Positions 16,669-36,465 of a stretch of 64,000 bases of DNA are shown piece by piece. The notes beneath the pieces are model-generated. The model searched no databases, was not told where the DNA came from, and worked only from the letters and a program-made list of their open reading frames with translations. Position 1 is the first letter of the stretch; every line of letters begins with the position of its first letter. This DNA comes from Actinomycetota bacterium (lineage in GTDB: Bacteria; Actinomycetota; Actinomycetes; Streptosporangiales; Streptosporangiaceae): assembly GCA_019240215.1 (NCBI GenBank), contig JAFAYQ010000073.1:1-64000 (forward strand), read 5' to 3'. Made by a program: the position numbers and the translations under genes.

Positions 16669-17691
16669 CTACGACGACGTCCGCATTAAGGGCTGACCGG
16701 ACGAGACCGAGACGCCGGGGGCGCCGCTCAGGTCGCCGGCGAACAGGGCGCGGAGCTCGGCGTCCTCGGCCGCGGTGGGGCGCCAGCCGGTGACGGCGGC
16801 GTTGGCGGTGACCTGGGCCGGGCTGGTCGCGCCGGTGACCAGGGTGGTCACGCCGGGCTGGGCCAGCAGCCATCCGTAGGCGACTTGGACCAGGCTCAGG
16901 TCGCGCTTGGCCGCGAACTCCCGCAACCGGTCCAGGGCCGCCCAGGGCGCCCGGGCGAGCAGGTGGGGCTTGAACCGGGTCACCTTGCCCTCGGCGGGCG
17001 ACTCGTCGCGCGTGTACTTGCCGGTCAAAAGGCCATTCTGGAGCGGGAAATAGGCCAGGAAACCTATGCCGAAGGCCGTCACCGCGGGTATCAGCTCCTC
17101 CTCCGCTTTCCGCCAGAGCAGGCTGTACTCGTTGGTGGTGGCGGCGAACCGCTGATACCCGTGCGCGCGGGCGGTGTGCTCAGCGTCGGCGATCTGCCAG
17201 CCAGCGAAGTTCGAGCTGCCGGTGTAGCGGACCTTTCCTTCCCGCACCAGTTCGTCGAGGACCTCCAGGGTCTCCTCGATCGGGGTGAGGGGGTCGGGCT
17301 GGTGCAGCTGGTAGAGGTCGATCCAGTCGGTGCGGAGGCGCCGGAGTGAGCCTTCGACCGCCAGCCGGACGTGGCGGCGGGAGCCGTGGGCGCCCCAGTC
17401 CGGTGGTCCGGGTGCCCCGTGGCGGCGGCTGAACTTGGTGGAGATGATCACGTCGTCCCGGTGGCCGGTCAGGGCCAGGCCGAGCATGGACTCGCTGACG
17501 CCGGGTTCATCACCGTAGGATTCCGCGGTGTCGAACAGGGTGACGCCGTGGTCGAGGGCCGTGCCCACGATCGCGTCCACGCCACGCTGGCCGCTCGGGA
17601 TCCGGTTCCGGTGACCGAAGGCGGCCGTGCCCAGGCCCAGCTCGGAGACGACCAGTCCGGAGCGGCCGGCGCTGCGAAACCCGATGCTCAC
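16669..17691 (-). CDS. Aldo/keto reductase
   Basis: VSELGLGTAAFG; LFDTAESYGD; IDLYQLHQPDPLTPIEETLEVLDELVREGKVRYTGSSNF. Confidence 0.96.
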   Translation of the reverse strand: MSIGFRSAGRSGLVVSELGLGTAAFGHRNRIPSGQRGVDAIVGTALDHGVTLFDTAESYGDEPGVSESMLGLALTGHRDDVIISTKFSRRHGAPGPPDWGAHGSRRHVRLAVEGSLRRLRTDWIDLYQLHQPDPLTPIEETLEVLDELVREGKVRYTGSSNFAGWQIADAEHTARAHGYQRFAATTNEYSLLWRKAEEELIPAVTAFGIGFLAYFPLQNGLLTGKYTRDESPAEGKVTRFKPHLLARAPWAALDRLREFAAKRDLSLVQVAYGWLLAQPGVTTLVTGATSPAQVTANAAVTGWRPTAAEDAELRALFAGDLSGAPGVSVSSGQPLMRTSS

Positions 17692-18521
17692 CGGGTCGCC
17701 CCGTCCCCAATTTCGATCTCGCGGCCGGGATCGGAGCTCCAGGCCGAGAACGAGCCCACGAACAAGGCAGCGGGCAGGCCGAGGCTGGCCAGCACGGCCA
17801 GTTCGTGAGCGCCGGCCACTCCCCCGCCGCAGTAGACCCCGGTCAGCCGGGTGCCCTCGATGCCGAGGGCGGCGAACCGCTCGCGCAGCGACTGCTCGTC
17901 CTGGAGGAGGCCGTCCGGGTCCAGGTTCCCGGTCGTCGGCGCGGCCTGGGCGCCCGGGATGTGCCCGTCGGCGAACGCCCCCAGCCCGCGGGCGTCGTAC
18001 AGCTCGCCGCGGGCGGCCCAGGCGGCGGCCTGGTCGGCGTCCAGCACGGGCAGGTGGCCGGGGCTGAGCGCCACGTCGCCCGGGACCGGGGTGGGCTCGG
18101 CCGTGCTGACCGGGTGGCCGCCGCGGAGCCAGGCCTGGTAGCCGCCGTCGAGCAGGCGGACGCTGCGCAAACCGGCCCAGCGCAGCACGAACCAGGCCCG
18201 TCCGGCCTTGGTCCCGGACACGTTGTCGTATACCACCACCGGGTCGCCAGCACTGATGCCCCAGGCCCGGGCCCGATCCTGGAGCAGGCCGATCGGCGGC
18301 AGCGGGCGGGCCCCGCTGAAGCCTTCCGGCTTCCCCTGCAGCTCGGTGGGCAGGTCGACGTAGACCGCGCCGGGGATGTGCCCGGCCTGGTACTCGGGCC
18401 GGCCGTCGGGGACCCCGTTCTGGTTGCGTACGTCCAGCACCACCGGCGGCCGGGGCCCGGCCAGCAGGGTGGCCAGCTCGGCGGCGGTGATGAAGTGCTC
18501 GGCGCGCGACGAAGTGGTCAT
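17688..18521 (-). CDS. Sulfurtransferase (tandem rhodanese)
   Basis: VVLDVRNQNGVPDGRPEYQAGHIPGAVYVDLPTEL; C-terminal active loop YCGGGVAGAHE. Confidence 0.92.
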   Translation of the reverse strand: MTTSSRAEHFITAAELATLLAGPRPPVVLDVRNQNGVPDGRPEYQAGHIPGAVYVDLPTELQGKPEGFSGARPLPPIGLLQDRARAWGISAGDPVVVYDNVSGTKAGRAWFVLRWAGLRSVRLLDGGYQAWLRGGHPVSTAEPTPVPGDVALSPGHLPVLDADQAAAWAARGELYDARGLGAFADGHIPGAQAAPTTGNLDPDGLLQDEQSLRERFAALGIEGTRLTGVYCGGGVAGAHELAVLASLGLPAALFVGSFSAWSSDPGREIEIGDGATR

Positions 18522-18525
18522 TCCT

Positions 18526-19956
18526 TCACCCGGCCGCTTGCGCCGTCGCGGCCTGGTCACCGGCCCCAGCCGTCCCGTTGGCCAGGTCGGCGTCCGGGTG
18601 GGCGGCGGCTGGCAGCATGCCCGCGGTGAACTGGTTGGCCGGCTTGGCCAGGCCGAAGAACTCACGGAACGTCGGGTGGTCCGGGTACTCGGTGCGGAAC
18701 AACCCGCGGCGCTGCAGCTCGGGGACCACGAGGTCCACGAACGCGTCCAGCGGGCCCGGCAGGTAGGGCGGGAACAGGATGAACCCGTCGGTGGTGCGCG
18801 CCTCGAAGTGCCGCTCGATGAAGTCGGCGACCTGCGGCCCGTCGCCCACCGCGACCTCGTTGCCGCCGGTGCGCCGCACGTACAAGGCCAGCTCCGCCAG
18901 TGGCGGGGCGTCGTCGTCGAGGGCGTGCCGGGCCCGGTCGACGATCAGCGCGGGCCGTCCGGTCAGGCCTTTGAGTTCCGGAATCTGATCGAGGGGAAGA
19001 TCGGCCGGGTAGCTGGTCAGGTCCACCCCGAGCGCAGCGCTCAGCCTGCCCAGATCGGGCCGGCCTACGGTCAGGTTCTGGACCTGTCGGAACTTGGCAT
19101 GCGCCTCCCGGGCGGTGCCCGCCACGAACACCGGCAGGCCCGCGACCAGCGGCTGGTCCTCGTCGCGGCCGTAGGTGGCGAGCATCGCCTTGGTGTCGCG
19201 GTAGTAGGCCTGGGCCGCCTCGAAGTCCTGCAGCAGGATGAACCGGATGTCGGCGTACTGGGCGCCGAATTCATGGGACTCGACCGACGACCCGGCGTGC
19301 AGCATCGGCACGTGCCCCTGCGGCGGCCGGGCGATGTTGATCGGGCCGTTGACGGAAAAATGCTGGCCCCGGTAGTTCAGCCGGTGCACCTTGGTCTCGT
19401 CGACGAACTGGCCGGTGCCCTTGACCGCGACCAGCGCGCCGTCCTCCCAGGTGTCCCACAACCCCCGGACGACCTCGATGAACTCACTCACCCAGGAGTA
19501 GCGGCGTTCGGAGTCCCAGTGCGTTTGGCGGCCATAGTTGCCCGCCGCCTCTTCATTCTTGCCGGTGACGATGTTCCAGGCCATCCGGCCGCGGCTGAGG
19601 TGGTCCAGTTCGGCGATGGCCCGGGCCACCGTGTAGGGGTCCGAGTAGGTGGTGTTGACCGTGGTCACGATGCCGATGTGGGTGGTGGCGGCGGCGATGA
19701 ACGCGGCCAGCGTCAGCGCCTCCGGCCGCAGCACCTCGTTCGGCGCCTCGTACTGGGAGGACGGCAGCCCGACGACCCGGTCGCCGACGAAATAGAAGTC
19801 GAGCTTGCCGCGCTCGGCGGCACGGGCGGTGTCGCGCATGAACCCGGGGTCGAACGTCCCGTGGGCGCTCGCCTCCGGCAGCCGCCACCCGGCCGGGTGC
19901 TGGCCGGACGCCCAGATCGAGAAGCCGAGCTTGACCTGACGGCGTTCTGCTGCCAT
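18526..19956 (-). CDS. NtaA/SnaA/DszA family FMN-dependent monooxygenase (LLM class)
   Basis: GFMRDTARAAERGKLDFYFVGDR; SDPYTVARAIAELDHLSRGRMAWNIVTGKNEEAAGNYG. Confidence 0.95.
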   Translation of the reverse strand: MAAERRQVKLGFSIWASGQHPAGWRLPEASAHGTFDPGFMRDTARAAERGKLDFYFVGDRVVGLPSSQYEAPNEVLRPEALTLAAFIAAATTHIGIVTTVNTTYSDPYTVARAIAELDHLSRGRMAWNIVTGKNEEAAGNYGRQTHWDSERRYSWVSEFIEVVRGLWDTWEDGALVAVKGTGQFVDETKVHRLNYRGQHFSVNGPINIARPPQGHVPMLHAGSSVESHEFGAQYADIRFILLQDFEAAQAYYRDTKAMLATYGRDEDQPLVAGLPVFVAGTAREAHAKFRQVQNLTVGRPDLGRLSAALGVDLTSYPADLPLDQIPELKGLTGRPALIVDRARHALDDDAPPLAELALYVRRTGGNEVAVGDGPQVADFIERHFEARTTDGFILFPPYLPGPLDAFVDLVVPELQRRGLFRTEYPDHPTFREFFGLAKPANQFTAGMLPAAAHPDADLANGTAGAGDQAATAQAAG

Positions 19957-19998: not shown

Positions 19999-20841
19999 CT
20001 AAACCTCGCGCAGTTCGTTGTGCAGCGCGATCAGTTCGGGCTCGGAGTAGATGTCGCGCACCTCGTGCGGCCCGGCCCGGCGCGGGATCGTGAACTCGCG
20101 GACCACCCGGCCCGGCCGGGGCGCCAGCGCCAGGACCCGGTCCGACAGCGACACCGCCTCGGCCAGGTCGTGGGTGACCAGCAGCACGGTCGTGCCCAGG
20201 TCGTTGCACACCCCGGCCAGCACCTGGTGCAGGGCCAGCCGGGTGGTGCCGTCGAGCGCCCCGAACGGCTCGTCCAGCAGCAGCACCGGCGGCCCGTAGA
20301 TCAGCGCCCGGGCCAGGCTGACCCGCTGCCGCATGCCGCCGGACAGCTGATGCGGGTAGTGGCCGGCGAAGCCGGCCAGCCCGACCCGGTCGAGCAGGCC
20401 GGCTGCCCGGGTGAGCCGTTCCTGCTTCGGTGTCCGTGCCAGTTCGAGCGGGAACGCGACGTTCCTGAGCGCGGTCCGCCACGGCAGCAGGGTGTCGTGC
20501 TGGGTCATGTAGCCGACCACCGGTACCCCGGCGCCGGCCGGGTTCGCGCCGGTGATCGTGACCTGCCCGCGGGTGGGGGTGAGCAGCCCGGCCAGGATGT
20601 TGAGCAGGGTGGTCTTGCCGCTGCCGCTCGGCCCGACCAGGCTGACGAACTCGCCGGGCTGGACCACCAGGTCGGTCCGGGCCAGCGCGACGACCGGCTG
20701 GCCAGCCGAGGTGCCAGCCAAGCTGTAGGTGTGCTCGATACCGGTGGCGACGATCGCGCCGTGCGGCTGGGCGGCCGGTCCGGGGCGGGCGGCGGCCGGG
20801 TCCGGGGTGCTGGCGGATGCGGTGGCCGGGCGGGTGCTCAT
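19999..20841 (-). CDS. ABC transporter ATP-binding protein (SsuB/TauB-like)
   Basis: GPSGSGKTTLLNILAGL, LSGGMRQRVSLARAL, LLLDEPFGALD. Confidence 0.95.
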   Translation of the reverse strand: MSTRPATASASTPDPAAARPGPAAQPHGAIVATGIEHTYSLAGTSAGQPVVALARTDLVVQPGEFVSLVGPSGSGKTTLLNILAGLLTPTRGQVTITGANPAGAGVPVVGYMTQHDTLLPWRTALRNVAFPLELARTPKQERLTRAAGLLDRVGLAGFAGHYPHQLSGGMRQRVSLARALIYGPPVLLLDEPFGALDGTTRLALHQVLAGVCNDLGTTVLLVTHDLAEAVSLSDRVLALAPRPGRVVREFTIPRRAGPHEVRDIYSEPELIALHNELREV

Positions 20842-21671
20842 CGCCGCTCCCGCGGCTGCCAGACCAGCAGCCGCTGCTCGGCCAGCCGGACCAGGAACAG
20901 CAACCCCTGGGTCACGATGACCAGCACCAGCACCGCCCCGAACAGGCCGGGCATGTCGAGGTTGTTGCCGGAGCTGGTGATCAGGTAGCCCAGGCCCTTG
21001 TTGGAGGCCAGGAATTCGATCACGATGACCGCGAACACGGCCCGGGGCAGCGACTGCTTGACCCCTGAGATCAGGTACGGCATCGCGTCCCAGAACTGGA
21101 TCTTGGTCAGCCGCTGCCGCCGCGACGCGTGCAGGATGCGCCCCAGCTCGAGCAAGTCGGGGCTGGTCTCGCGGAGCCCGGTGAAGGCGTTGGCGAAGAA
21201 CGAGCAGAACGTGGTGAGCGCGGCGACCACGATCTTCGGTTCCAGCCCGAGGCCGAACCAGATGATCAGCAGCGGGGCCAGGGCCACGAACGGCACCGCG
21301 CCGAGGGCCAGGATGTAGGTCTCGAAGAACCGGCCGAGCGGCGCGACCTCCACGAACAGCACGGCCGCGGCCAGCGCCACGATGACGCCGATGACGAAGC
21401 CGGCCAGGAGCGCGATCAAGGTCGGCCGGAGGTTCTGCCACAGCGTGCCGTTGCCGAGCCACTGGTACAGCCGGACCGCGATCGTGGACGGGCTGGCCAC
21501 CAGCAGCGGGTCGATCCAGCGGCCGGACGCGTACTGCCAGACGCCCAGGATCGCGGCGACGAACAGCACGTGCAGGGCGGGCATCGTCAGCTTGCGGCGG
21601 CCGGCCGCCAGCCGCCGGCCGGGTGTCCTCCCGGCCGGCGGGGTGGTGGGCTCGACCTGGACAGCTGTCAC
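20838..21671 (-). CDS. ABC transporter permease (SsuC/TauC-like)
   Basis: Hydrophobic ORF; LRETSPDLLELGRILHASRRQRLTKIQFWDAMPYLISGVKQSLPRAVFAVIVIEFLAS EAA-loop. Confidence 0.94.
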   Translation of the reverse strand: MTAVQVEPTTPPAGRTPGRRLAAGRRKLTMPALHVLFVAAILGVWQYASGRWIDPLLVASPSTIAVRLYQWLGNGTLWQNLRPTLIALLAGFVIGVIVALAAAVLFVEVAPLGRFFETYILALGAVPFVALAPLLIIWFGLGLEPKIVVAALTTFCSFFANAFTGLRETSPDLLELGRILHASRRQRLTKIQFWDAMPYLISGVKQSLPRAVFAVIVIEFLASNKGLGYLITSSGNNLDMPGLFGAVLVLVIVTQGLLFLVRLAEQRLLVWQPRERR

Positions 21672-22816
21672 TGACCCGATCCCAGCGAGTTCAGATAGGA
21701 CGGGTCGAACACATCGGTGTCGGGCACGTTGGCGCTGGCCGGGATCTCACCGCTGGCCTTGGCCAGCTGCAGGTTGGCGGTGATGGCGGCGGCCGGCATG
21801 ACCAGCGAGTAGTCGACAGTCTGGTTGGTCGCCTTGACGTTGGCGAGCACGGCCGAGGCGGGCACGGACGGGAAGTGCTGGCCGACGACCTGGGCTTCCT
21901 GGGCCACCGTGTGGTTCTTGATCCACTGGGCGCCTTCGAGCTCGGCCTTGAGGAACTTGCTCACCGTGGCCTTGTTGGCCTGGCCCCACTTCTGGCTGAG
22001 GATCCAGCCGGTCCCGCCGGTGCCCAGCTCGATCGGGCTGAGGGCGGAGGCGACCGCGGCGTCGGTGGGGTCGAACACGTTCACGCCCAGGCCTTTGGCC
22101 AGCTCCTGCTGGTCCTGGTAGGCGGTCGGCCAGTAGGCGCTGACGGCGCCGCCCTCGAACGAGGCCTGGTCGGCGGTGTTGTTGCCCAGGTTCACCTTGT
22201 TGAGGCCGGACTTGGGGTCGAGGCCGCCGTAAGTGGCGAGGATCTCGGTGTAGTGGTCCTGCAACCCGCCGGCCGCGTGGGTGCCCCACGAGGTGCCCTT
22301 GAGCTTGGCGATCCGCTGCTTGAGCGGGAGGGCCTGGAACTGGGCCGGGGTGAGCCCCTTGCTGGCCAGCCACTTCTTCGACACCACCGCGTAGGTGATC
22401 GACCGGGTGGCCTCGGTGGCGACGGCGACCAGCTTGTGGGAGGTGCTGTAGGTCTCGACCGAGGTCGACGGAGCGTACTCGCCGATGTCGATCTTGCCCG
22501 CGATCTCGGCTTCGACGATGGGCGGCCCGCCGTTCAGGGCGGTCACGTTGATGTTCAGGCCCTGCTTTTTGAAGAAGCCCTCGTGCTCGGCGATCTCGAA
22601 CGGGCCGCCGGTGGCGGTGGCCGGGCCGGACAGCGCGAGCTGGACGGTGGTGGTGGCGGAGGTCTCGGCGCCGCCGGTGGCCTTCGCCCCCGAACTGCAG
22701 GCGGCGACCGCACCGGTGACCAGGGCGAGGCTCACGGCGCCGGCCGCGTAGCGCAGCGGGTGCCGTCGCCCGGGGCGCCGGGACGATGGGCGGTCTGGTG
22801 TGGTCGTTAGCTGCAT
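21668..22816 (-). CDS. ABC transporter substrate-binding protein (SsuA/TauA-like lipoprotein)
   Basis: Lipobox VAACSSG; TTVQLALSGPATATGGPFEIAEHEGFFKKQGLNINV. Confidence 0.92.
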   Translation of the reverse strand: MQLTTTPDRPSSRRPGRRHPLRYAAGAVSLALVTGAVAACSSGAKATGGAETSATTTVQLALSGPATATGGPFEIAEHEGFFKKQGLNINVTALNGGPPIVEAEIAGKIDIGEYAPSTSVETYSTSHKLVAVATEATRSITYAVVSKKWLASKGLTPAQFQALPLKQRIAKLKGTSWGTHAAGGLQDHYTEILATYGGLDPKSGLNKVNLGNNTADQASFEGGAVSAYWPTAYQDQQELAKGLGVNVFDPTDAAVASALSPIELGTGGTGWILSQKWGQANKATVSKFLKAELEGAQWIKNHTVAQEAQVVGQHFPSVPASAVLANVKATNQTVDYSLVMPAAAITANLQLAKASGEIPASANVPDTDVFDPSYLNSLGSGQ

Positions 22817-23252: not shown

Positions 23253-23951
23253 CTACATGCCGTCCTTGATCAGCGACTGGATCCGCCAGTCGCGCATGCG
23301 GCACAGGTGGTCGGCCATGGCCGCCCCGGCCGCGGCCTGGTCGCCGGCGGCGATGGCGGCCAGGATGACGGCGTGCTCCTCGGCTGACCGGTCGTCCGGC
23401 TGGGGGGTGAACGTGCGCGGCCGGAGCAGCAGCAGCAGCGAGTCCAGGCGGGCCAGCAGGTCGCTGATGGTGGCGTTGTGGGCGGACAGCCGCAATGCGT
23501 CGTGCCATTTGTTGTTGAGCGGCCCGAACTGGGCCGGATCGGCCTCGGCCCGCCGTTCGTCCAGCACGTAGGCCATCCGCGCCAGATCGATGTCGGTGCG
23601 GTTGCGGGCGGCCAGTTCGGCGCTACGGCCCTCCAGCGCGATCCGGGCCTCGTAGATCTCGAGGATCTCTTCCGGGTTGCGCTGCCGGATCCGGAAGCCA
23701 CGGGTCGACCGCTCGATCAGCCCGTCCTGGGCCAGCCGCCCGAGCGCCTCCCGGACCGGCGTCCGCGACACCCCGTACTTCGCGCTCAGCGCCGTCTCCA
23801 GCAGGATCGTCCCGGGCGCGAACGCCCCGTTGAGGATGTCCTTGCGCAACCGCGCGTACTGCAGGTCGGTCGAGTCGAAGCGAGCGGGCCGGGCGGGCGG
23901 CGACGACGGATCGGCGGCCGCCATCCGCCGGTCAGGTTCCGCTGCTGCCAC
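23253..23951 (-). CDS. GntR family regulator, FCD domain
   Basis: LQYARLRKDILNGAFAPGTILLETALSAKYGVSRTPVREALGRLAQDGLIE. Confidence 0.95.
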   Translation of the reverse strand: MAAAEPDRRMAAADPSSPPARPARFDSTDLQYARLRKDILNGAFAPGTILLETALSAKYGVSRTPVREALGRLAQDGLIERSTRGFRIRQRNPEEILEIYEARIALEGRSAELAARNRTDIDLARMAYVLDERRAEADPAQFGPLNNKWHDALRLSAHNATISDLLARLDSLLLLLRPRTFTPQPDDRSAEEHAVILAAIAAGDQAAAGAAMADHLCRMRDWRIQSLIKDGM

Positions 23952-24198: not shown

Positions 24199-24984
24199 GT
24201 GACTACCGTCGTCCCCTTCCAGGTTCAGCAGGCCAGCCCCGGGCTCGGGGCCGAGATCAGCGGCGTGGACCTCACCCGGCCGGTCGACGAGGCGACCGCC
24301 AATGCGTTGCGGCAGGCGTTCGTCGATCACAAGGTGCTGGTCTTCCGCGGCCAGCAGCTGACCCCGGATCAGCAGGTCGAGGCGGTGCGGATCTTCGAGG
24401 AACCGTTCGACCACCCGACCGCGGTGCACCGGCATCCCGACAACCCGCTGGTCTACGTCTACGAGCTGGAGAAGTCCGGGCTGGCGGCCCACTGGCACGT
24501 CGGCGGGCTGTGGCGCACTCCCCCGTTCGGCATCGAATCGCTCACCTACCAGGTGGTGCCCGAGGTCGGCGGGCACACGCTGTGGGCCGACCTGCAGGCC
24601 GCCTACGACGACCTGTCCGCCCCCGTCCAGGACCTGCTGGAGAACGTGAGCGCGGTCTACGACGGTAACGCGGTCAACTACGGCGGCGGTGACAAAGAGC
24701 CGCTGGCCGCCACGATCGAGCATCCGGTAGTGCGGGCGCACCGCGTCACCGGCCGCAAGGGCCTGTTCCTCAGCCACTCCGCGCTCCGGCTGACCGGGCT
24801 CGAGCCAGCCGAGAGCCAGGCGCTGCTGCCGTTCCTGCTGGCTCACGCCTCCTCCCCCGACTACACGATCAACTACGGCTGGCGGCCCGGGGACTTCGTG
24901 CTCTGGGACAACCTGGCCACCTGGCACTACGCGGTCAACGACTACGACGGGCCGCGCGCCTACCGCAAGGTCATCGCCGGCTGA
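24199..24984 (+). CDS. TauD/TfdA family Fe(II)/2OG-dependent oxygenase with HxG instead of HxD
   Basis: GAEISGVDLTRPVDEATANALRQAFVDHKVLVFRGQQLTPDQQ; AHWHVGGLWRTPP; DFVLWDNLATWHYAVNDY...RAYRKV. Confidence 0.93.
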   Translation: MTTVVPFQVQQASPGLGAEISGVDLTRPVDEATANALRQAFVDHKVLVFRGQQLTPDQQVEAVRIFEEPFDHPTAVHRHPDNPLVYVYELEKSGLAAHWHVGGLWRTPPFGIESLTYQVVPEVGGHTLWADLQAAYDDLSAPVQDLLENVSAVYDGNAVNYGGGDKEPLAATIEHPVVRAHRVTGRKGLFLSHSALRLTGLEPAESQALLPFLLAHASSPDYTINYGWRPGDFVLWDNLATWHYAVNDYDGPRAYRKVIAG

Positions 24985-25931
24985 TGGTCACGTCGTCGCA
25001 GAGTTTCACGGACCTGGCCGACGAGTTCTCCCTGCTCGGCGAGACCGCGGCCGAGGCGGGGGTGCCGGGTGCCCGGCCGCGGGTCCGTCGCGGCTGGGTC
25101 AACGTGCCGACTGGCGGGCACGTCAGCGGGGTCATCTGGGGGGCGGGACCACCCGAGGTGGTGTTCCTGCACGACAGCGCGGAGAGCGGGCGGGCCTGGG
25201 ACGCGGTGGCGCTGGTACTGGGCCGCCCGGCCGTCGCCATCGACCTGCCCGGCCACGGGCGGTCGGACTGGCGGCGCGATGGCCGCTACCAGCCCGCCAA
25301 GCTGGCGGCCGCGGCGGCCGAGGCGATCGGGTCGTTCGCGCCCAAGGCTCAGCTGGTGGTGGGCAGCGGTCTCGGCGGCCTGACCGCGCTGGCCGCGCAG
25401 CGCAAACAGCCGCGCCGCGTACCAGCGATCGCGCTGGTCAACGTCTTCCCGGGCGCCACTGCGGCGCGGACCCGGCCGGGGCGCGGCCCCGAACGGTTCG
25501 CCAGCCGCGAGGAGGCGTTCGCGGCGCTGGCGGCCCGGTACCCCGAGCACGGCCGGGCCGCGTTGCGCCGGGAGATCTTGTACGAGCTGGACCAGCAGCC
25601 GGACGGAACGTGGGGATGGCGGCACCATCCGGGCAACCAGCCGGCCCCGGACGCTGATCCGGACGTCGCCCCGGCGGGCGGCCTGGAAGCGGGCTACGAC
25701 CAGCTGGCCCAGCTGCCTATCCCGGTCACGCTGATCGTCAGTGATCCGGCCGGCCCGCTGACGTCGGCCGAGCGGCAACGGCTGCGCCAGCGCGCCCCGA
25801 AGGTCAGCGTGGCCACGATCGCGGGCGCTGGCCGGGACATCGCCGCCACCCAGCCCGCCGCCCTGGCCGCGGTCCTGGACCACCTGCTCCCGGTCAGGGC
25901 CGGGACCGAAACCGACGGAGGGCAGCCATGA
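24984..25931 (+). CDS. Alpha/beta fold hydrolase with GSGLGG at the nucleophile elbow
   Basis: VVFLHDSAESGRAWDAVALVLGRPAVAIDLPGHGRSDW; LVVGSGLGGLTALAA. Confidence 0.85.
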   Translation: MVTSSQSFTDLADEFSLLGETAAEAGVPGARPRVRRGWVNVPTGGHVSGVIWGAGPPEVVFLHDSAESGRAWDAVALVLGRPAVAIDLPGHGRSDWRRDGRYQPAKLAAAAAEAIGSFAPKAQLVVGSGLGGLTALAAQRKQPRRVPAIALVNVFPGATAARTRPGRGPERFASREEAFAALAARYPEHGRAALRREILYELDQQPDGTWGWRHHPGNQPAPDADPDVAPAGGLEAGYDQLAQLPIPVTLIVSDPAGPLTSAERQRLRQRAPKVSVATIAGAGRDIAATQPAALAAVLDHLLPVRAGTETDGGQP

Positions 25932-26710
25932 CCCAGACCGCACCCGCGCCCGGAACCGAGGCCACCAGCCGGATCCGGATCGAGCCGAACCAGCGGCGGG
26001 TCCGGGTGTTCTTCGGCGGTGAGCCGATCGCCGACAGCAGCCGGACCATCTACCTGTTCGAGACCGGGCACCTGCCGGTGTACTACTTCCCGCGCGAGGA
26101 CGTCCGGTTCGACCTGCTGGAGTCGACCAGCCACACCACCCACTGCCCCTACAAGGGCGACGCCTCCTACTACTCGATCGCCGCGGGCGGCCGGCAGGCC
26201 GACAACGCCGTGTGGGCTTACCGGGAGCCGATCGGCTCGGTGGCCGAGCTGGCCGGCTACGTCGCCTTCTACTGGAACCAGGCCGACGCCTGGTACGAGG
26301 AGGACGACGAGGTGTTCAAGCACCCGCGCGACCCCTACCACCGGGTGGACGTGCTCAACTCCTCGCGGCACGTGGAGGTGCGGGTAGGCGGCGTGCTGGT
26401 GGCCGACACCCGGCGGCCGCGGCTGCTGTTCGAGACCAGCCTGCCGGTCCGCTACTACGTGCCCAAGCTCGACGTGAACCTCAGCCTGCTGGAGCCCAGC
26501 GCGACCAGGACCCGGTGCCCGTACAAGGGCGAGGCCGTGTACTGGTCGGTCCGGGCCGACGGCGAACTGCACCAGGACCTGGTGTGGGGCTACCCGGCGC
26601 CGATCCCGGAGGCGCCGAAGATCGAGAACCTGCTGGCCTTCTTCAACGAAAAAGCCGACATCACGGTGGACGGGATCCCGCAGAAGCGGCCCGTCACCAA
26701 CTGGTCGTGA
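25928..26710 (+). CDS. Tandem DUF427 domain protein
   Basis: Two copies of the module VRVFFGGEPIADSSRTIYLFETGHLPVYYFPREDV...CPYKGDASYYSI and VEVRVGGVLVADTRRPRLLFETSLPVRYYVPKLDV...CPYKGEAVYWSV. Confidence 0.93.
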   Translation: MTQTAPAPGTEATSRIRIEPNQRRVRVFFGGEPIADSSRTIYLFETGHLPVYYFPREDVRFDLLESTSHTTHCPYKGDASYYSIAAGGRQADNAVWAYREPIGSVAELAGYVAFYWNQADAWYEEDDEVFKHPRDPYHRVDVLNSSRHVEVRVGGVLVADTRRPRLLFETSLPVRYYVPKLDVNLSLLEPSATRTRCPYKGEAVYWSVRADGELHQDLVWGYPAPIPEAPKIENLLAFFNEKADITVDGIPQKRPVTNWS

Positions 26711-26723
26711 GGAGAAACCCGCC

Positions 26724-27788
26724 ATGACGTACCCAATCCCGGTCATCGACCTCGAGGCCGCCACCTCCCCCACCGCCCCGCCCGCGCTGCTGGACACGAT
26801 CCGGAACGCCACCGAGGACGTCGGCATCATCCAGGTGGTCAACCACGGCGTGCCGCAGCCCCTGATCGACGAGTTCAACCAGCGGATCGCCCGGCTGCTC
26901 GGGCTGCCCCGGCCGCAGAAGGCGGAGCTGGCCAGCCCCACCGGTCACCCGTACCGGGGCTGGCGGCAGTGGCCAGACGATTTCGGGCGGCTGGAGCTGG
27001 AACGGTTCAACGTGGGGCAGTTCGACAACGCCGCCGCCGCCCGGGCGGCCGGCCTGCCCGAGGAGTACCTGGGCCTGTACGACCACGACAACGTCTGGCC
27101 GGCCGACGACCCGCGGCTGCGGGACGTGACCTACGACTACATCAACGCGACCACCGCCCTGGCCGGGCGGGTGCTCGGCCTGTACGCGCGGGTCCAGGGG
27201 CAGCCGGAGGACACGTTCGGCCTGGGGTCGCTGCCGTACGTGACGTTCACCGTCAACGACTACCCGACCTGGACCTACGACGGCAGTGCCAGCGAGGGCG
27301 GGGCTGGCGATGACGGGGCCAGCGACGAGGACAAACTGCTGCTGCTGGAGCACGCCGACGGCTCGGCCGTCACGATCCTCGGCCAGACCGGCGACTACGA
27401 AGGCCTCCAGATCCAGTTGCCGGACGGGGACTGGCAGCCGGTGCCGATCGTCCCCGGCGCCTTGCCGGTGTTCTCCGGCAGCCTGCTCACCAACTGGACG
27501 AACGGGCGGTTGCGGCCGGCCCGGCACCGGGTGGTGGCGGGCGGCACGGTGACCCGGCGGTCGGTGGCCACGTTCGTCTACCCGGCCCTGGACACGGTGG
27601 TCGAGCCGCTGCCGCCGTTCGTCGAGCCCGGTGAGGAGAGCGACTACGAGCCGGTCTCCATCTGGGACAGCGTCAAAGACCGGGTGGAGAACTACCTCAA
27701 GGTGTTCGGCCGCCCGGACCAGGTCAGCGCCTGGCGCGAGGGCACGACCTACGTCGCCGACCTGGCCGACAACTCCGCCGGGCGCTAA
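26724..27788 (+). CDS. Isopenicillin N synthase-like 2OG/Fe(II) oxygenase
   Basis: IPVIDLEAA...GIIQVVNHGVPQPLIDEF; HAD and RHRV...RRS motifs. Confidence 0.93.
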   Translation: MTYPIPVIDLEAATSPTAPPALLDTIRNATEDVGIIQVVNHGVPQPLIDEFNQRIARLLGLPRPQKAELASPTGHPYRGWRQWPDDFGRLELERFNVGQFDNAAAARAAGLPEEYLGLYDHDNVWPADDPRLRDVTYDYINATTALAGRVLGLYARVQGQPEDTFGLGSLPYVTFTVNDYPTWTYDGSASEGGAGDDGASDEDKLLLLEHADGSAVTILGQTGDYEGLQIQLPDGDWQPVPIVPGALPVFSGSLLTNWTNGRLRPARHRVVAGGTVTRRSVATFVYPALDTVVEPLPPFVEPGEESDYEPVSIWDSVKDRVENYLKVFGRPDQVSAWREGTTYVADLADNSAGR

Positions 27789-27797
27789 CGGCCCGGA

Positions 27798-28826
27798 TCA
27801 GCTGGCCTCGGCTCGGCTGGGCGTCTCAGCGGGCGCCCAGCCGAGCCGGGGCGCGATCTCTTCGGCGATCGTCTCGACCGCGTCCCGGCGCTGGGCCCGG
27901 CTCCGGCTGCCGTACGCCACCGCGAACTGCAGCTCGGTGACCAGCGGGAAGGCCGGGAACGCGGCGATCGAGGCCGCGATCTGGGCGGGCGTGCCGTAGT
28001 GCACGTTGATCGCGGCGGCCTTCTCCTCCAGGGTTCCGGCCGCCGGTAGCCAGTCTTTGCCCCAGGCGTAGACGGTCACGATGTCGTCGGCCAGCTCGGC
28101 CAGGGCGGTGCGGCGGTCGCGGGCCGGGTGGATGTTCACCACCAGGCCGACTCGTGGCGGCTGCCCGGCGGGCAGGCTGGCGTGATAGGCGGCCGCGGTG
28201 ACCTCGGCGGGCACGGTCTGGGTGGAGCCGATCAGCACCCCGTGGCCGCGGGCGGCCGAGTCGTGGCCGGTCTGCTCGGTCAGGGCCGACTCCCAGATCC
28301 GGCCGGACAGCCCGGGTGCGGGCGGGTTCAGTTCCTGGTCGGTACCGTTGACCGGCTCGCCGTCGAGCACCGCCGTCAGCGTGCCCAGGGTGTGCAGGTA
28401 GGCGGCCTTCTTGGCGTCCCGGTTGGGGCCGAGGTCCACGCCCAGGGCGGCCGCGATCGGGGGCTGGCCGCCGTTGGAGACCCCCAGTTCCAGGCGGTCG
28501 CCGCTGATCGCGTTGAGCACGGCGGCGTCCTCCGCGACGCGGACCACGTTCTCCAGCGGCAACGGCACCACCCCGGTGCCGAGCCGGATCCGCGACGTCC
28601 GCGCGGCCACCGCGCCCAGGAACGTGAACGGCGACGGCAGCCCGCCCGGGAAGCTGAAACCCTGGGTCTGGCTGGCCCGGCGGAAATGGTACGAGCGCAC
28701 CCAGGCGCTGTCGAAGCCGAGCTTTTCGGCCCGGGCGAAATGGCCGAGCATTTCCCGGTAGATGTCGGCCTGCGGCCCGTGCTCACGCAGGTCGGAGTGG
28801 ATGCCGATCCGCAGCCGTCCGGTCAC
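27798..28826 (-). CDS. LLM class flavin-dependent oxidoreductase (GTG start)
   Basis: RLRIGIHSDLREHGPQADIYREMLGHFARAEKLGFDSAWVRSYHF; VAARTSRIRLGTGVVPLPLENVVRVAEDAAVLNAISGDRLELGVSNG. Confidence 0.92.
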   Translation of the reverse strand: MTGRLRIGIHSDLREHGPQADIYREMLGHFARAEKLGFDSAWVRSYHFRRASQTQGFSFPGGLPSPFTFLGAVAARTSRIRLGTGVVPLPLENVVRVAEDAAVLNAISGDRLELGVSNGGQPPIAAALGVDLGPNRDAKKAAYLHTLGTLTAVLDGEPVNGTDQELNPPAPGLSGRIWESALTEQTGHDSAARGHGVLIGSTQTVPAEVTAAAYHASLPAGQPPRVGLVVNIHPARDRRTALAELADDIVTVYAWGKDWLPAAGTLEEKAAAINVHYGTPAQIAASIAAFPAFPLVTELQFAVAYGSRSRAQRRDAVETIAEEIAPRLGWAPAETPSRAEAS

Positions 28827-28888
28827 TGTTCCTCCAGGTGGCCGCGCAGGGTGGTCGCGGTGTACTCGGTCCGGTGCAGGCCGCGGCG

Positions 28889-30145
28889 CTACAGGATCGG
28901 CACCACGTGGTCGGTGAACAGCTCGATGGCGCCGGGCAGCACGGTCGGCTGCAGGGTGAAGCCGTCGCTGGCCCCGGCCGTCAGCCACTCCTCGATCAGA
29001 TCGGCGAACTGCTCGGGAGTACCGGTGAATTCGAGCCCGCCGGGCAGGCCGGTGAGCTCGGCCGCCAGCTGGCGGAACGTCCGGCCGGTCTCCTTGGTCC
29101 GCCGCACCAGGTCATCGGTGCGGCTGGTGCGGCTGGCGGCCGCGACGGCCGCTTCGCTGAGCGGGTGGTCGGGATCGATCAGGGCCGGGTCGAGCCCGGC
29201 GTTGTGGGCCAGGTTGCGCCAGCGGAACTCGGGGTCGACCCGGTCTTCCAGTGCCTGCCGCCGGTCCCGGGCCTCGGCCTCGGTGCTGCCGAGGACGAAG
29301 GCCACGCCCGGCAGCACCAGCACGTCGCCGGGGTCGCGGCCGTGGCGGCGGGCGGCAGCGCGGACCGTGTCCCGGAACGTCCGGCCGGCCGCCACCGTCG
29401 GCTGGGCGGTGAACACCAGGTCGGCGGTCTTCCCGGCCAGCTCGACGCCGGGACCGGACGACCCGGCCTGCGCGAACGCGGGCCGTCCCTGCGGTGACCG
29501 GGGCAGCGTCAGCGCGCCGCTGACGTCGAAGAACCGGCCGTGGAAGTTGACCGGCCGGATCCGCCCGACGTCGGCCCAGACGCCGCTGGCCTGATCGGCC
29601 ACGACCGCGCCGGCGTCCCAGCTGTCCCACAGCCGGGTGACCACGTCGACGAACTCCTCGGCCCGGGCATACCGGTCCTCGTGGGCGGGGTGGGCGGTCA
29701 GCCCGAAGTTGCCGGCCGCGCCGGCGTACCGGGTGGTGACGATGTTCCAGCCGGCTCGGCCGCCGGACAGGTGGTCGATGGTCGAGAACCGGCGGGCCAG
29801 CTCATACGGGGCGCTGTAGGTGGTGGAGGCGGTGGCGATCAGCCCGATCCGGCTGGTGGAACGGGACAGCGCGGCGATGATCTCCAGCGGGTCGAAGCCG
29901 ACCTGCGGGAAGTAGCGGGCCCGGAAGCTGGCCAGGCCCGGTGAATCGGCGAAGAACACGGCGTCGAGCAGGCCGCGCTCGGCCGCCTGGACCGACCGCT
30001 CCAGCACTCCGAACCGGGCCGGGTCGGCCAGGTCGGCCGGGTCGGCCAGCCGCCAGGCGGACTCGTGATACCCGACGCCGGACAGGAACGCGGTGAAGTG
30101 GGCCAGCCGGCGATCCCCGTCGGCCACCGTGCGGTCCTCGCCCAT
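28889..30145 (-). CDS. NtaA/DmoA family FMN-dependent monooxygenase, amber-truncated near C-terminus
   Basis: AAERGLLDAVFFADSPGL; STIDHLSGGRAGWNIVTTRYAGAAGNFG; after TAG the frame continues RRGLHRTEYTATTLRGHLEEQ-stop. Confidence 0.9.
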   Translation of the reverse strand: MGEDRTVADGDRRLAHFTAFLSGVGYHESAWRLADPADLADPARFGVLERSVQAAERGLLDAVFFADSPGLASFRARYFPQVGFDPLEIIAALSRSTSRIGLIATASTTYSAPYELARRFSTIDHLSGGRAGWNIVTTRYAGAAGNFGLTAHPAHEDRYARAEEFVDVVTRLWDSWDAGAVVADQASGVWADVGRIRPVNFHGRFFDVSGALTLPRSPQGRPAFAQAGSSGPGVELAGKTADLVFTAQPTVAAGRTFRDTVRAAARRHGRDPGDVLVLPGVAFVLGSTEAEARDRRQALEDRVDPEFRWRNLAHNAGLDPALIDPDHPLSEAAVAAASRTSRTDDLVRRTKETGRTFRQLAAELTGLPGGLEFTGTPEQFADLIEEWLTAGASDGFTLQPTVLPGAIELFTDHVVPIL

Positions 30146-31257
30146 CAGGCGGCCCGCTTCGGGGCGGCGTCGCGGACGGTGACCGCCTGCCGGATCAGCC
30201 GCAGCGTCTCGCGGCGCAGCTCGGCGGCGGCGGCGCTGGTGACGTGGCTGCCCAGGCTGACCACGCCGATCCCGAGGTCGTGGTAGGCGAGGACGGCGTC
30301 GGCGATCGTGGACGGCGACCCGACCAGGGCCGGGGTGGCCCGTGAGAGCGCGGTCAGGCCGAGGTAGAGGGCCTCGTCCTGCCACGGCCCGGCGCCGGAG
30401 TCGAGGTCGGCGAACCGGTCCTCGCGGATCGAGCGGACCTTGACCTGACCGCCGGACCGGAACTCCTGCAGCGTGCGGATGGCCTGCTCCAGCTCGCGGA
30501 CGTGCTGCCGGGCGGCCTCGTCGGTCTCCCCCGCGACCATGTTCAGGTTGATCCAGAACCGAAGGTCACGCTCGCCCGCGAGCGCGCGGGCGGTGGCGAT
30601 CTTGGCGGCCGCCGCCGCTCGCGCGGTGCCGTGGAACGCCAGCACGTCCGCGTACCGGGCCGCCAGCGCGATCCCGTCGTCCGATTCGGCCGGCAGCGAG
30701 ATCGGCGGGCGCGGCGTCTGGACCGGTTTGACGCCGGAATACGCGCCGCGGACCCGGTAGAACTCGCCGTCGAAGTCGAACGGCTGGTCACGGCCGAGGA
30801 CGCCGGTGAAGATCTCCAGGTACTCGGCCGCCCGCCGGTAGCGGGCGTCCCGGTCGGCGTGGTCCCCGTCCCGGGGCAGGTCGGCGCCGCTGCCGAGGAT
30901 CAGGTGGAGCCCGGTCCGGCCCGCCGAGACCCGGTCCAGGGTGGCCAGCGCGCGGGCGGCGGCGGTCGGCGCCTGGGTGCCGGGCCGGTGGGCCAGCACC
31001 ACCCGCAGCCGCTCGGTCCGGGCCAGCGCCCAGGTGGCGGTGACGGTGACGTCCGGCCAGGTCGCGCTCTGCGGCCAGATGGCGGAGTCGTAGCCGGCCG
31101 CCTCGTACTCGCGCGCCTCGGCGCTGATATAGCCAGGATCGGCGGTGACCGGCTCCGGCACCGGGGTGAAGTAGGCCGCTTCGCGGGCGAGGCCGGCCGT
31201 CGAGTAGCTGTTGCTGTACGACTGCGGGTTGAGCCAGGCGCGCAGCTCAATCGGCAC
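30145..31257 (-). CDS. LLM class flavin-dependent oxidoreductase (SsuD-like)
   Basis: GYDSAIWPQSATWPDVTVTATWALARTERLRVVLAHRPGTQAPTAAARALATLDRVSAGRTGLHLILG; GTG start in translational overlap. Confidence 0.9.
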   Translation of the reverse strand: MPIELRAWLNPQSYSNSYSTAGLAREAAYFTPVPEPVTADPGYISAEAREYEAAGYDSAIWPQSATWPDVTVTATWALARTERLRVVLAHRPGTQAPTAAARALATLDRVSAGRTGLHLILGSGADLPRDGDHADRDARYRRAAEYLEIFTGVLGRDQPFDFDGEFYRVRGAYSGVKPVQTPRPPISLPAESDDGIALAARYADVLAFHGTARAAAAAKIATARALAGERDLRFWINLNMVAGETDEAARQHVRELEQAIRTLQEFRSGGQVKVRSIREDRFADLDSGAGPWQDEALYLGLTALSRATPALVGSPSTIADAVLAYHDLGIGVVSLGSHVTSAAAAELRRETLRLIRQAVTVRDAAPKRAA

Positions 31258-32857
31258 GGGCGACACCTCCGAAGTCGGGGGCCGGGGCCGGGGCCGGGGA
31301 CGGCGCCTGGGCCTGGCGCAGCGCGAGCGCCGAATCCACCAGCGACCGGGTGTACGGGTGCTCGGGGTGCCGGAAGATCTCCTCGGCCGCCTTGAGCTCG
31401 ACCAGCTCACCGTCGTAGAGCACGCCGATGCGGTCGGAGACCTGGCGGACGACGGCCAGGTCGTGGGAGATGAACAGGTAGGACACTCCGGTCCGGTCCT
31501 GCAGCTCGGCCAGCAGGTCGAGCAGCCGGGCCTGGCTGGAGACGTCCAGCGCCGAGGTCGGTTCGTCGCAGATGACCAGCGGCACCGGGCCGGCGAAGGC
31601 GCGGGCGATGGCCACCCGCTGCTTCTGCCCGCCGGACAGCTCGTGCGGCAGCTTGGCCAGCAGGTCGGGGCCGACCCCGGTGCGGTTGGCCAGTTCCTCC
31701 ACCGTCTGGTCACCGCCGAGCAGCTCGATCGACCGGGCCAGCACCTGCCGGACGGAGCGGCGAGGGTTCAGCGAGGAGTCGGCGTTCTGGAACACGACCT
31801 GGACCCGGGGCAGCGTCCTCCGGCCCCGGCGGCGGTCCTCGGTGTGGAACGTGATGGTGCCGTCGTAGCTGGTCAGGCCGGCCAGGCTGAGCCCCAGGGT
31901 GGTCTTGCCGCTGCCGGACTCGCCGACCAGGCCCAGCGCCTCGGCCCGGCCGATCGTGAACGAAACGTCGGACAGGGCCGCTTTTTGCTGGAAGCGCTTG
32001 GTCAGGTGCTCGACCGTGACCAGCGGGCCCTGGGCGGTGTCGGCGGCGGGCCGGGGCGGGCGGACCGCGTTGATGTCGGGCAGCGCCGCGATCAGCGACC
32101 GGGTGTAGGGGTGCCGGGGCGCCAGCAGCACGTCGGCGGCGGCTCCTTCCTCGACCAGCACCCCGCCCTCGAGCACGCCGATGCGCTGGCAGTGGGCGGC
32201 GATGAGCGGCAGGTTGTGGCTGATGAGGATGCTGGCGAAGCCGAGCTCGGCCCGCAGGCCGTCGATCAGCGCCATGATCTCGGTCTCCACCCGGCTGTCG
32301 AGCCCGGTCGTCGGCTCGTCCAGGATCAGCAGCCGCGGCTCGCTGGCCAGCGCCATCGCGATGACGATGCGCTGCTGCTGGCCGCCCGACAGCTCGTGCG
32401 GGTAACGCTTGGCGATCTGGCCGGCCGGCGACAACCGGACCCGTTCGATCGCGGCCCGGGTCCGCGCGCGGGCCTGCGCCCGGCCGGCGCCGTGCAGCCG
32501 GTACACCTCCTCGATCTGGCGGCCGACGGTCATGGTCGGATCCAGCGCCAGCCCCGGCTCCTGATAGACGACCGACAGTGCTCCGGCCCGGAAGCGGCGC
32601 AAGGCTGGGGTGTCCAGCGCCAGCACGCCGGTCCCGGCCACCGACAGCTCGGCCGCGGTGACACCGGTCCCGGGCGGCAGGTAGCGGGTCAGCGTCATCG
32701 CGGCCGTGCTCTTGCCGGAACCGGACTCGCCGACCAGCCCGTAGGACTCCCCGGGGGCGATCGTGAGATCAAGGTCGCGGACGGCGGTGACCGGGCCCGA
32801 GCGGCCCCGGTAGCTGACCACCAGGCCCCGTACCTGCACGGCGGGCGCGTCGGTCAC
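31247..32857 (-). CDS. ABC transporter, dual ATP-binding domains (DppD-DppF-type fusion)
   Basis: Two sets of Walker A/signature/Walker [10 protein letters not shown]...LSGGQQQR...LLILDEPTTGLD and GESGSGKTT...LSGGQKQR...LVICDEPTSALD. Confidence 0.95.
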   Translation of the reverse strand: MTDAPAVQVRGLVVSYRGRSGPVTAVRDLDLTIAPGESYGLVGESGSGKSTAAMTLTRYLPPGTGVTAAELSVAGTGVLALDTPALRRFRAGALSVVYQEPGLALDPTMTVGRQIEEVYRLHGAGRAQARARTRAAIERVRLSPAGQIAKRYPHELSGGQQQRIVIAMALASEPRLLILDEPTTGLDSRVETEIMALIDGLRAELGFASILISHNLPLIAAHCQRIGVLEGGVLVEEGAAADVLLAPRHPYTRSLIAALPDINAVRPPRPAADTAQGPLVTVEHLTKRFQQKAALSDVSFTIGRAEALGLVGESGSGKTTLGLSLAGLTSYDGTITFHTEDRRRGRRTLPRVQVVFQNADSSLNPRRSVRQVLARSIELLGGDQTVEELANRTGVGPDLLAKLPHELSGGQKQRVAIARAFAGPVPLVICDEPTSALDVSSQARLLDLLAELQDRTGVSYLFISHDLAVVRQVSDRIGVLYDGELVELKAAEEIFRHPEHPYTRSLVDSALALRQAQAPSPAPAPAPDFGGVARAD

Positions 32858-33714
32858 GACCAGACCTCCTTGAGGTTGTCGGCCACCAGCTGGGTGGCGA
32901 CCACCAGCGAGCCGACCGCCACTGCCGGGAACACCACCGACCACCAGGCGCTCTCCAGGTAGACCCGGTTTTCGTTGATGACCAGGCCCCAGTCCGGCGA
33001 CGGCGGCTGCGCCCCCAGGCCCAGGAACGACAACGTGGCGGTCATCAAGATCGCGGCCGCCAGGCTCAGGGTGGCCTGGATGACGATGGTCGGCAGCACG
33101 TTGGGCACCAGCTCGCGGGCCATGATCCGGGCCGCCGACTCGCCCTGGACCTTGGCCGTGGTCACGTACTTCTTGCCCATCTCGGCCAGCACCGCGGCGC
33201 GGATGATGCGGGCGATGCCGGGGGCGAACACCACCCCGATGATCACGATGAGCGCAGGCACGCTGGCGCCGAACGCCTCGACCACGACGATCAGGAAGAT
33301 CAGCGGGGGCAGCACCACCAGCACGTCGAACAGCCGCATGAACGCGGTGTCGACCCAGCCCCGGAAGTAGCCGGCGATGACACCAAGCGCGCTGCCGAGG
33401 ACGGTGGCCAGCAGGCAGCCGAACGCACCGACCAGCAGGGCGGTGTCGGCCCCGGCCAGGGTGCGGGCGAACACGCTGCGGCCGAGGCTGTCGGTGCCGA
33501 GCAGCTGGTGCCAGCCCGGGGCCAGGTTGATGTGGCCGGTGTTGACGTACGGGTTCAGCCCGAACAGCCGCCAGGTGGCGGCCGCCCCCACCCACCAGAG
33601 CACGATCAGCGCGCTGACCACGAACGTCGGCCGCCGCAGCAGCGCCCGCAGCCTGCGCCGGCCCGGCCGGGCCCGGGCCTCGGCGCTGGCGGCGGTGGTG
33701 ATCGCGACGGCCAT
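32854..33714 (-). CDS. ABC transporter permease (DppC-like)
   Basis: GWHQLLGTDSLGRSVFARTLAGADTALLVG; permease EAA loop. Confidence 0.95.
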   Translation of the reverse strand: MAVAITTAASAEARARPGRRRLRALLRRPTFVVSALIVLWWVGAAATWRLFGLNPYVNTGHINLAPGWHQLLGTDSLGRSVFARTLAGADTALLVGAFGCLLATVLGSALGVIAGYFRGWVDTAFMRLFDVLVVLPPLIFLIVVVEAFGASVPALIVIIGVVFAPGIARIIRAAVLAEMGKKYVTTAKVQGESAARIMARELVPNVLPTIVIQATLSLAAAILMTATLSFLGLGAQPPSPDWGLVINENRVYLESAWWSVVFPAVAVGSLVVATQLVADNLKEVWS

Positions 33715-34748
33715 CAGCTCTCCCCGGCCTCGAAGCGGATCCGCGGGTCCATCAGGATCAGGCCGATGTCGGTCAGCAGCAGCGCCAGCAGCGCGATGAC
33801 CCCGGTGATCATCACGCCGTCGGTCAGCAGCACCGGATCCTTGCGCTCGGCCGCGACCACCAGCAGCGCCCCCAGCCCCGGGTAGTTGAACAAGGTTTCC
33901 ACCACCGCGCTGCCGCCCAGCAGCGTGCCCAGGTAGATCCCCACCAGCTGAAGAGTGGGGATGAGGGCGTTGCGGGCCACGTGGCGGCGCACGATCTGCG
34001 CGGGCCGCAGGCCCTTGAGCACCGCGGTCCGGTGGAACTGGGCGGTGAGCGCGCCGGCCGTCCCGGTCCGGACCATCCGGGCCAGCACGGCCAGGTAGGC
34101 GACGGCCAGCGTCACCGCCGGCAGCGTCGTCACCTGCAGACGCTGCGCGAAGTCACCGGTCGCGAACGCGCCCGACTCGACCGGGACCAGGTTCAGGCCG
34201 ACCGCGAACACCACGAGCAGCAGCACGCCGATGACGAACTCGGGCACCGACGACAGCGACATCAGCGCGATCGTGATGCCCCGGTCGGTGCGGCCGCCCT
34301 CGCGGTAGGCCTGGATCGAGCCGAGCACCAGCGCCAGCGGCACCAGCAGCACGAACGCGAAGAGCCCGAGGAACAGGGTGTTGACCAGGTGACCGAAGAC
34401 CAGCGGCCGCGACGGCACCTGGTAGACGAAGCTGGTCCCCCAGTTGCCGGACACGAAGTCGCTCAGCCAGTGCAGGTAGCGCCCAGTGATCGGGCCGGTC
34501 AGCCCGTTGCTGACGTCCCAGGCGCGGACCTGGGCCGGGGTCGCGTACTGGCCGAGCGCGTTACGGCCGGGGTCGCCGGGCACCAGCTCGATCAGCCAGA
34601 ACGTGAGGATGGAGACCACGAACAGCACGACCGGGATCTGGATCAGCCGCCGGCCGAGCAGGGTCAGCACCCGGCTGCGGCGCCCGGACCACAAACCCGG
34701 GCGGCGGCCGGGCGCCAGCGCCGCCGCCTGGTCGGAGAGCACGCTCAT
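33714..34748 (-). CDS. ABC transporter permease (DppB-like)
   Basis: LGRRLIQIPVVLFVVSILTFWLIELVPGDPGRNALG. Confidence 0.95.
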   Translation of the reverse strand: MSVLSDQAAALAPGRRPGLWSGRRSRVLTLLGRRLIQIPVVLFVVSILTFWLIELVPGDPGRNALGQYATPAQVRAWDVSNGLTGPITGRYLHWLSDFVSGNWGTSFVYQVPSRPLVFGHLVNTLFLGLFAFVLLVPLALVLGSIQAYREGGRTDRGITIALMSLSSVPEFVIGVLLLVVFAVGLNLVPVESGAFATGDFAQRLQVTTLPAVTLAVAYLAVLARMVRTGTAGALTAQFHRTAVLKGLRPAQIVRRHVARNALIPTLQLVGIYLGTLLGGSAVVETLFNYPGLGALLVVAAERKDPVLLTDGVMITGVIALLALLLTDIGLILMDPRIRFEAGES

Positions 34749-34750
34749 CG

Positions 34751-36331: not shown

Positions 36332-36465
36332 GGATGCTCCCCAGGATCAGTGCGAGATGCGGGCAGAAGTTAAGGGCAGGCCGAATTGCCTATTTTGTCT
36401 ACCGGAAAGGTAGCAATTGGCTGCGCTTTCGTCCATAGCAGGCCGCGATGGGGCTTGCGGGCCGG

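Follow-up and report, generated by a model that had tools for sequence, protein, structure and literature searches.

Clade-specific glutamate in actinobacterial TauD/TfdA-family proteins with an HxG motif

Related enzymes and the window protein

Fe(II)/2OG alkyl sulfatases of the AtsK/Rv3406 type are described for sulfur scavenging (PMC3675115). Like TauD, these enzymes carry HxD, and the TauD/TfdA family is characterised by the 2-His-1-carboxylate motif HxD...H. Motifs of the type HxG or HxA...H are found in the Fe/2OG halogenases SyrB2, WelO5, BesD, AdaV and DAH. In halogenases the vacant site is occupied by the halide (PMC12346261). The same HxG...H is present in human AspH, a hydroxylase whose substrate is not halogenated (PMC10947486, PMC13168262) and the only well-characterised natural HxG hydroxylase that we found. 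In AspH the vacant site contains water held by the second-sphere residue Asp721; pseudohalide binding is confined to the O2 site, halogenation is absent, and the variant D721A is much less active (PMC13168262). Neither a TauD-family HxG protein nor a TauD halogenase was found in the literature (open-access papers).

The window, i.e. the whole analysed stretch of 64,000 nucleotides (contig JAFAYQ010000073.1 of an Actinomycetota bacterium), encodes a TauD/TfdA-family protein, with AGAAGGG 7 bases 5' of its GTG start (Table 1). The membership in this family, proposed in the initial annotation, was confirmed by the Pfam match TauD (PF02668; E=1.5e-49, residues 9-253). With NCBIfam TauD (NF007104) 171.3 bits were obtained at a curated cut-off of 313, hence the protein is below the threshold for taurine dioxygenases. 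The motif was read as Trp99-His100-Val101-Gly102-Gly103-Leu-Trp, as reported before, and HxG replaces HxD in the window protein and in all members of its clade. The distal His and the Arg, which had been expected to be retained, are present (His243, Arg253). Thus, the window protein possesses the motif of halogenases, HxG/A with the distal His kept.

An AlphaFold2 model of the window protein, based on an alignment of 101 sequences, reached a mean pLDDT of 91.5. The best PDB matches of the model were TauD (3pvj/1os7, TM about 0.9) and related enzymes; for TauD 1os7 Foldseek gave E=1.6e-26. In a PDB search with the profile of the clade, AtsK (1oih, E 8e-43) and TauD (9e-41) were the closest solved relatives. 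With AtsK/Rv3406 the protein shares both iron His, the 2OG Arg and Thr, and the sulfate His is aligned. In contrast to these HxD enzymes it carries HxG and Glu113, a position occupied by Ser in AtsK, as well as Lys257 or Arg256, depending on the alignment, in place of the anion-binding Arg. TauD has the same fold and belongs to the same Pfam family, but its Tyr73, which binds the amine of taurine, is unmatched in the alignment. His72 is aligned with the His that binds sulfonate or sulfate in TauD (H70) and AtsK. The counterpart of R270, the Arg of TauD for the substrate anion, is Lys257 in the larger alignment and Arg256 in the smaller one; the deep clade member L110 lacks both.

Table 1 Features of the window
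Feature	Position	Strand	Remark
TauD/TfdA-family protein of the HxG clade	24199..24984	+	261 aa, GTG start
His72	24412..24414	+	aligned with TauD H70 and AtsK His; invariant in the clade
His100-Val101-Gly102, HxG replacing HxD	24496..24504	+	codons CAC GTC GGC
Glu113, candidate replacement carboxylate	24535..24537	+	codon GAA; invariant in HxG; Ser/Thr/Ala/Cys in HxD
His243, distal iron ligand	24925..24927	+	invariant in HxG and HxD sets
Arg253, 2OG-binding Arg (TauD R266, AtsK R275)	24955..24957	+	Arg in all HxG and HxD rows
Alpha/beta hydrolase	24984..25931	+	overlaps stop of the TauD-family gene; same operon
Protein with two DUF427 domains	25928..26710	+	overlapping; same operon
Second 2OG-Fe(II) oxygenase (DIOX_N + 2OG-FeII_Oxy)	26724..27788	+	His-Ala-Asp kept; same operon
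GntR/FCD regulator	23253..23951	-	divergent from the operon
SsuA/NMT1-like substrate-binding protein	21668..22816	-	
ABC transporter permease	20838-21671	-	
ABC transporter ATPase	19999-20838	-	
NtaA/DmoA-family FMN-dependent monooxygenase (TIGR03860)	18526..19956	-	411 bits, cut-off 279.7
Rhodanese-domain sulfurtransferase	17688..18512	-	start codon provisional

Distribution and origin of the HxG motif

The search for homologues covered 84,980 species genomes. Nine close homologues with 67-70% identity were detected in Frankia, Protofrankia, Pseudofrankia and one Mycobacterium, all of them with WHVGG (9/9). Profile searches yielded about two dozen further genes with WH[V/I]GG. In total, around 33 HxGG genes are known from four actinobacterial families, comprising Frankia types, mycobacterial types, a large Streptomyces-like genus and the window's own family. 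Carriers identified by profile search numbered 16 among 35 genomes in the Frankia-type family, nine among 296 in the large genus (f20/g55, resembling Streptomyces), five among 301 in a family resembling Mycobacteriaceae and only two among 397 in a phylum-wide sample. The number of HxG genes rules out a one-off mutation or a sequencing error. A one-off mutation would be expected if all close orthologues had HxD; instead, the orthologues carry HxG.

The alignment of 152 rows contained 37 rows with H-G-H, corresponding to about 33 genes because four rows re-read the same genes, 114 rows with H-D-H and one row with Q-G-H. All other sampled homologues that keep the first His thus have HxD (114/114). 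A tree from which the motif columns had been excluded grouped the HxG rows into one clade with an SH-aLRT support of 97, rising to 100 for the inner clade without L110. This member, with 42% identity, has WHIGG and retains the Glu113 pattern; its placement is less sure because of its long branch. By this comparison of sequences a single origin of HxG in the clade was established.

The Q-G-H row is a TauD-like protein of a metagenome bin (L080:2738-3586) with WQAGG. It has lost the Asp ligand together with the first His, keeps the distal His and is without Glu113; probably it is inactive or has another function. It is the only case found of an independent HxG origin within TauD. Five further motif oddities (L040, L059, L083, L085, L088) turned out to be shifts of the tblastn alignment and have HxD in the full alignment. 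A relative with 41% identity on a Pseudomonas aeruginosa plasmid belongs to an ordinary taurine operon and also has HxD.

Within the Frankia-type group and within the mycobacterial group, Nei-Gojobori dN/dS values were about 0.05-0.25. For the window gene against the others 0.25-0.49 were calculated, with synonymous sites being partly saturated. The clade is under purifying selection. Furthermore, His100, Thr127 of the 2OG site, His243 and Arg253 are invariant in the alignment. A pseudogene is ruled out by the dN/dS values together with this invariant core, and the dead paralogue, one of the options considered initially, is contradicted by the invariance in four families and by the low dN/dS between closer relatives.

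A function other than oxygenation, for example as a sensor binding 2OG, metal or sulfonate, as another non-redox protein or as a dead paralogue kept for its structure, is improbable to us. The Asp ligand is normally essential, and two near-invariant second-shell positions are altered, which would fit such a protein: Tyr154 replaces His (His in 110/114 HxD rows) and Ser192 replaces Asn (Asn in 88/114). Against this reading, the pair of iron His, the 2OG Arg and Thr are invariant in all four families, and under purifying selection the changes appear as conserved replacements, not as decay. Other clade-specific residues are Gly103, Trp105 and Lys257, the last replacing an Arg found in 111/114 HxD rows.

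Glu113 and the putative iron site

Position 113 is occupied by Glu in 37/37 HxG rows and in 0/114 HxD rows, an association that counts as a single evolutionary event and gives no independent statistical support or covariation, since Gly102 and Glu113 arose once. The HxD rows have Ser (78), Thr (23), Ala (12) or Cys (1), never an acidic residue. No other acidic position was found with 100% in HxG and 0% in HxD. In the model Glu113 opens the strand 112-119, which follows the HxG loop. Residues 113, 115 and 117 share one face of this strand; Leu115 is present in all 151 rows, and residue 117 is small in HxD proteins. This pattern suggests a strand that faces the barrel interior with one of its sides. 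In a double-stranded beta-helix this strand starts from the HxD loop, where the barrel has its metal end. Judged from strand alternation and the secondary structure of the model, Glu113 is predicted to point inward, beside the iron. In AspH, the seventh and the ninth residue behind the HxG glycine were reported to touch the oxalyl carboxylate of an iron-chelating 2OG analogue (PMC10947486), which indicates that the strand region after HxG adjoins the metal in this fold. Together with the position of the strand at the barrel end, these contacts lead us to expect Glu113 near the iron. Whether another Asp or Glu lies at the metal had been raised initially as a point to be checked; Glu113 is a concrete candidate for this role.

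We consider the protein to be a 2OG/Fe oxygenase with a sulfonate or sulfate ester as its substrate and with the lost Asp compensated by Glu113, and assign this reading a probability of about 60%. It is favoured over the three alternatives discussed here. The iron would be held by two canonical ligands only, His100 and His243, with the place of Asp vacant at Gly102. Glu113, as the first predicted inward-facing residue on the strand that follows the HxG loop, may compensate for it in two ways. On the one hand, it could ligate the iron directly, giving a relocated 2-His-1-carboxylate site. On the other hand, it could bind a water molecule in the vacant site by a hydrogen bond, like Asp721 in human AspH. 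Arg253 and Thr127 would hold the 2OG; His72 and Lys257/Arg256 would bind the substrate at its sulfonate or sulfate group. The ferryl species would then hydroxylate the carbon adjoining sulfur or oxygen, so that sulfite or sulfate would be released.

The first of these options, a carboxylate moved from Asp to Glu113 on the next strand, is tentative and rather doubtful. A 2-His-1-Glu site of this kind would represent a cupin-like topology new in the TauD family. In the 3-His-1-Glu cupins germin and acireductone dioxygenase, which are double-stranded beta-helix proteins, one of the metal ligands is a Glu located on the strand that follows the first motif. These cupins belong to another branch of the superfamily, use no 2OG and have a short hairpin; hence, the comparison is an analogy only.

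Variants lacking the Asp were described for other enzymes. TauD D101A neither hydroxylates nor halogenates, and P4H D414G is inactive, with no halogenation or hydroxylation after removal of Asp (PMC2767507). Loss of Asp is thus usually costly, which counts against an oxygenase with a compensated site. The same paper states, citing earlier work, that TauD D101A is rescued by formate (PMC2767507); by this account, a carboxylate unattached at position 101 can serve. By analogy, Glu113 could be such a carboxylate built into the protein, either as ligand or as water anchor.

A hydroxylase with two His and a third ligand of water was also considered; Glu113 would then have no metal role and would, for example, position the substrate or pair with Arg106. 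This reading seems unlikely. This chemistry works in AspH, and Arg106 and Trp105 are likewise invariant across the clade. However, Glu113 alone among the acids follows the loss of Asp102 exactly, and it is predicted to point inward. AspH itself belongs to another family of 2OG oxygenases with a protein substrate, and its helper acid precedes the distal His by four residues instead of lying on the strand behind HxG.

The stable loss of Asp and the gain of a Glu that is absent from all sampled relatives thus point to organosulfur oxidation with an unusual iron site, which is probably the function of the clade rather than halogenation or a dead gene. Iron binding by Glu113 would show that evolution can rewire the ligands of 2OG oxygenases; in the case of a water held by Glu113, the clade would provide a second, independent site of the AspH type.

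Gene neighbourhood and the question of halogenation

The HxG gene is the first gene of its operon in the window (Table 1). The sulfur-type locus recognised initially is supported by neighbours of the SsuA, NtaA/DmoA and rhodanese types. Among 20 genomes, at least eight have a NtaA/DmoA-type monooxygenase within 8 kb of the HxG gene, about 20-fold more than the roughly 0.4 expected; this expectation was calculated from genome-wide numbers of NtaA/DmoA genes and is rough, since such genes cluster. SsuA-type proteins also recur around HxG genes. The neighbours vary by genome, and half of the loci are without a NtaA/DmoA-type neighbour, which makes the sulfur role a contextual one. Of the question whether HxG is conserved in orthologues beside the same operon genes, the first part was answered positively, but a constant neighbourhood was not found. 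In general, the neighbourhood suggests organosulfur scavenging and not natural-product halogenation, and no biosynthetic cluster was detected in the HxG loci examined.

In seven loci the HxG gene is accompanied at short distance by a glutathionyl-hydroquinone-reductase-type GST, which is absent from the window. It is the next gene, with an FCPWA motif, at L011:9003-9953, L014:9080-10048 and L016:8796-9722, and was also observed beside or close to the HxG gene of L160, L161, L168 and L172. Enzymes of this class are known from halo-aromatic metabolism.

The three next-gene positions in L011, L014 and L016 are in favour of an Fe/2OG radical halogenase, in which Cl or Br would occupy the site vacated by Asp and a ferryl-halide would pass the halogen to a substrate radical. 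The retained Arg253 and both His are also consistent with it, and HxG...H is regarded as the hallmark of halogenases (PMC12346261). In this respect the initial annotation was right about the motif; as a mark of halogenases, however, HxG lacks diagnostic value, since a non-halogenating HxG hydroxylase exists in human AspH. HxG alone gives no halogenation in AspH, nor did loss of Asp in the TauD and P4H variants (PMC2767507). Furthermore, no solved halogenase was among the PDB matches of the clade profile at E<=1, and no sequence kinship to these enzymes was detectable. The setting is one of sulfur catabolism, without biosynthetic context, and the invariant acid gained at a position predicted beside the iron would disfavour a halide and speaks against an open, uncharged halide pocket. 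A halogenase is therefore unsupported, and we regard it as very unlikely. The initial annotation was right about the lost Asp ligand and the preserved TauD core; of the options named at first, the oxygenase with altered reactivity survives.

Genome mining routinely flags halogenases by HxG, and this clade, which is widespread in Frankia-type genomes, looks like a misleading case. It offers a natural comparison for the open question of what beyond Asp to Gly decides between hydroxylation and halogenation. The clade protein is a small soluble bacterial enzyme and should be easy to study.

Relatives of other operon members were found beside HxG genes as well. A 36% relative of the alpha/beta hydrolase adjoins the HxG gene in L014, and DUF427 relatives lie near it in two mycobacterial-type genomes (L162:16339-16776, L163:4337). 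Another NtaA/DmoA-type monooxygenase is located in the window at 28838-30145(-); its ORF stops at TAG 28889 while the family match continues to 28838, i.e. the C-terminus is slightly shortened. The region 27798-38845(-) contains a TIGR04027 (LLM_KPN_01858)-like monooxygenase and genes of an oligopeptide-type ABC transporter. In L162 a TIGR04028 (SBP_KPN_01854)-like binding protein adjoins the HxG gene, and together with the TIGR04027-like protein of the window this suggests an uncharacterised flavin-monooxygenase/transporter cassette.
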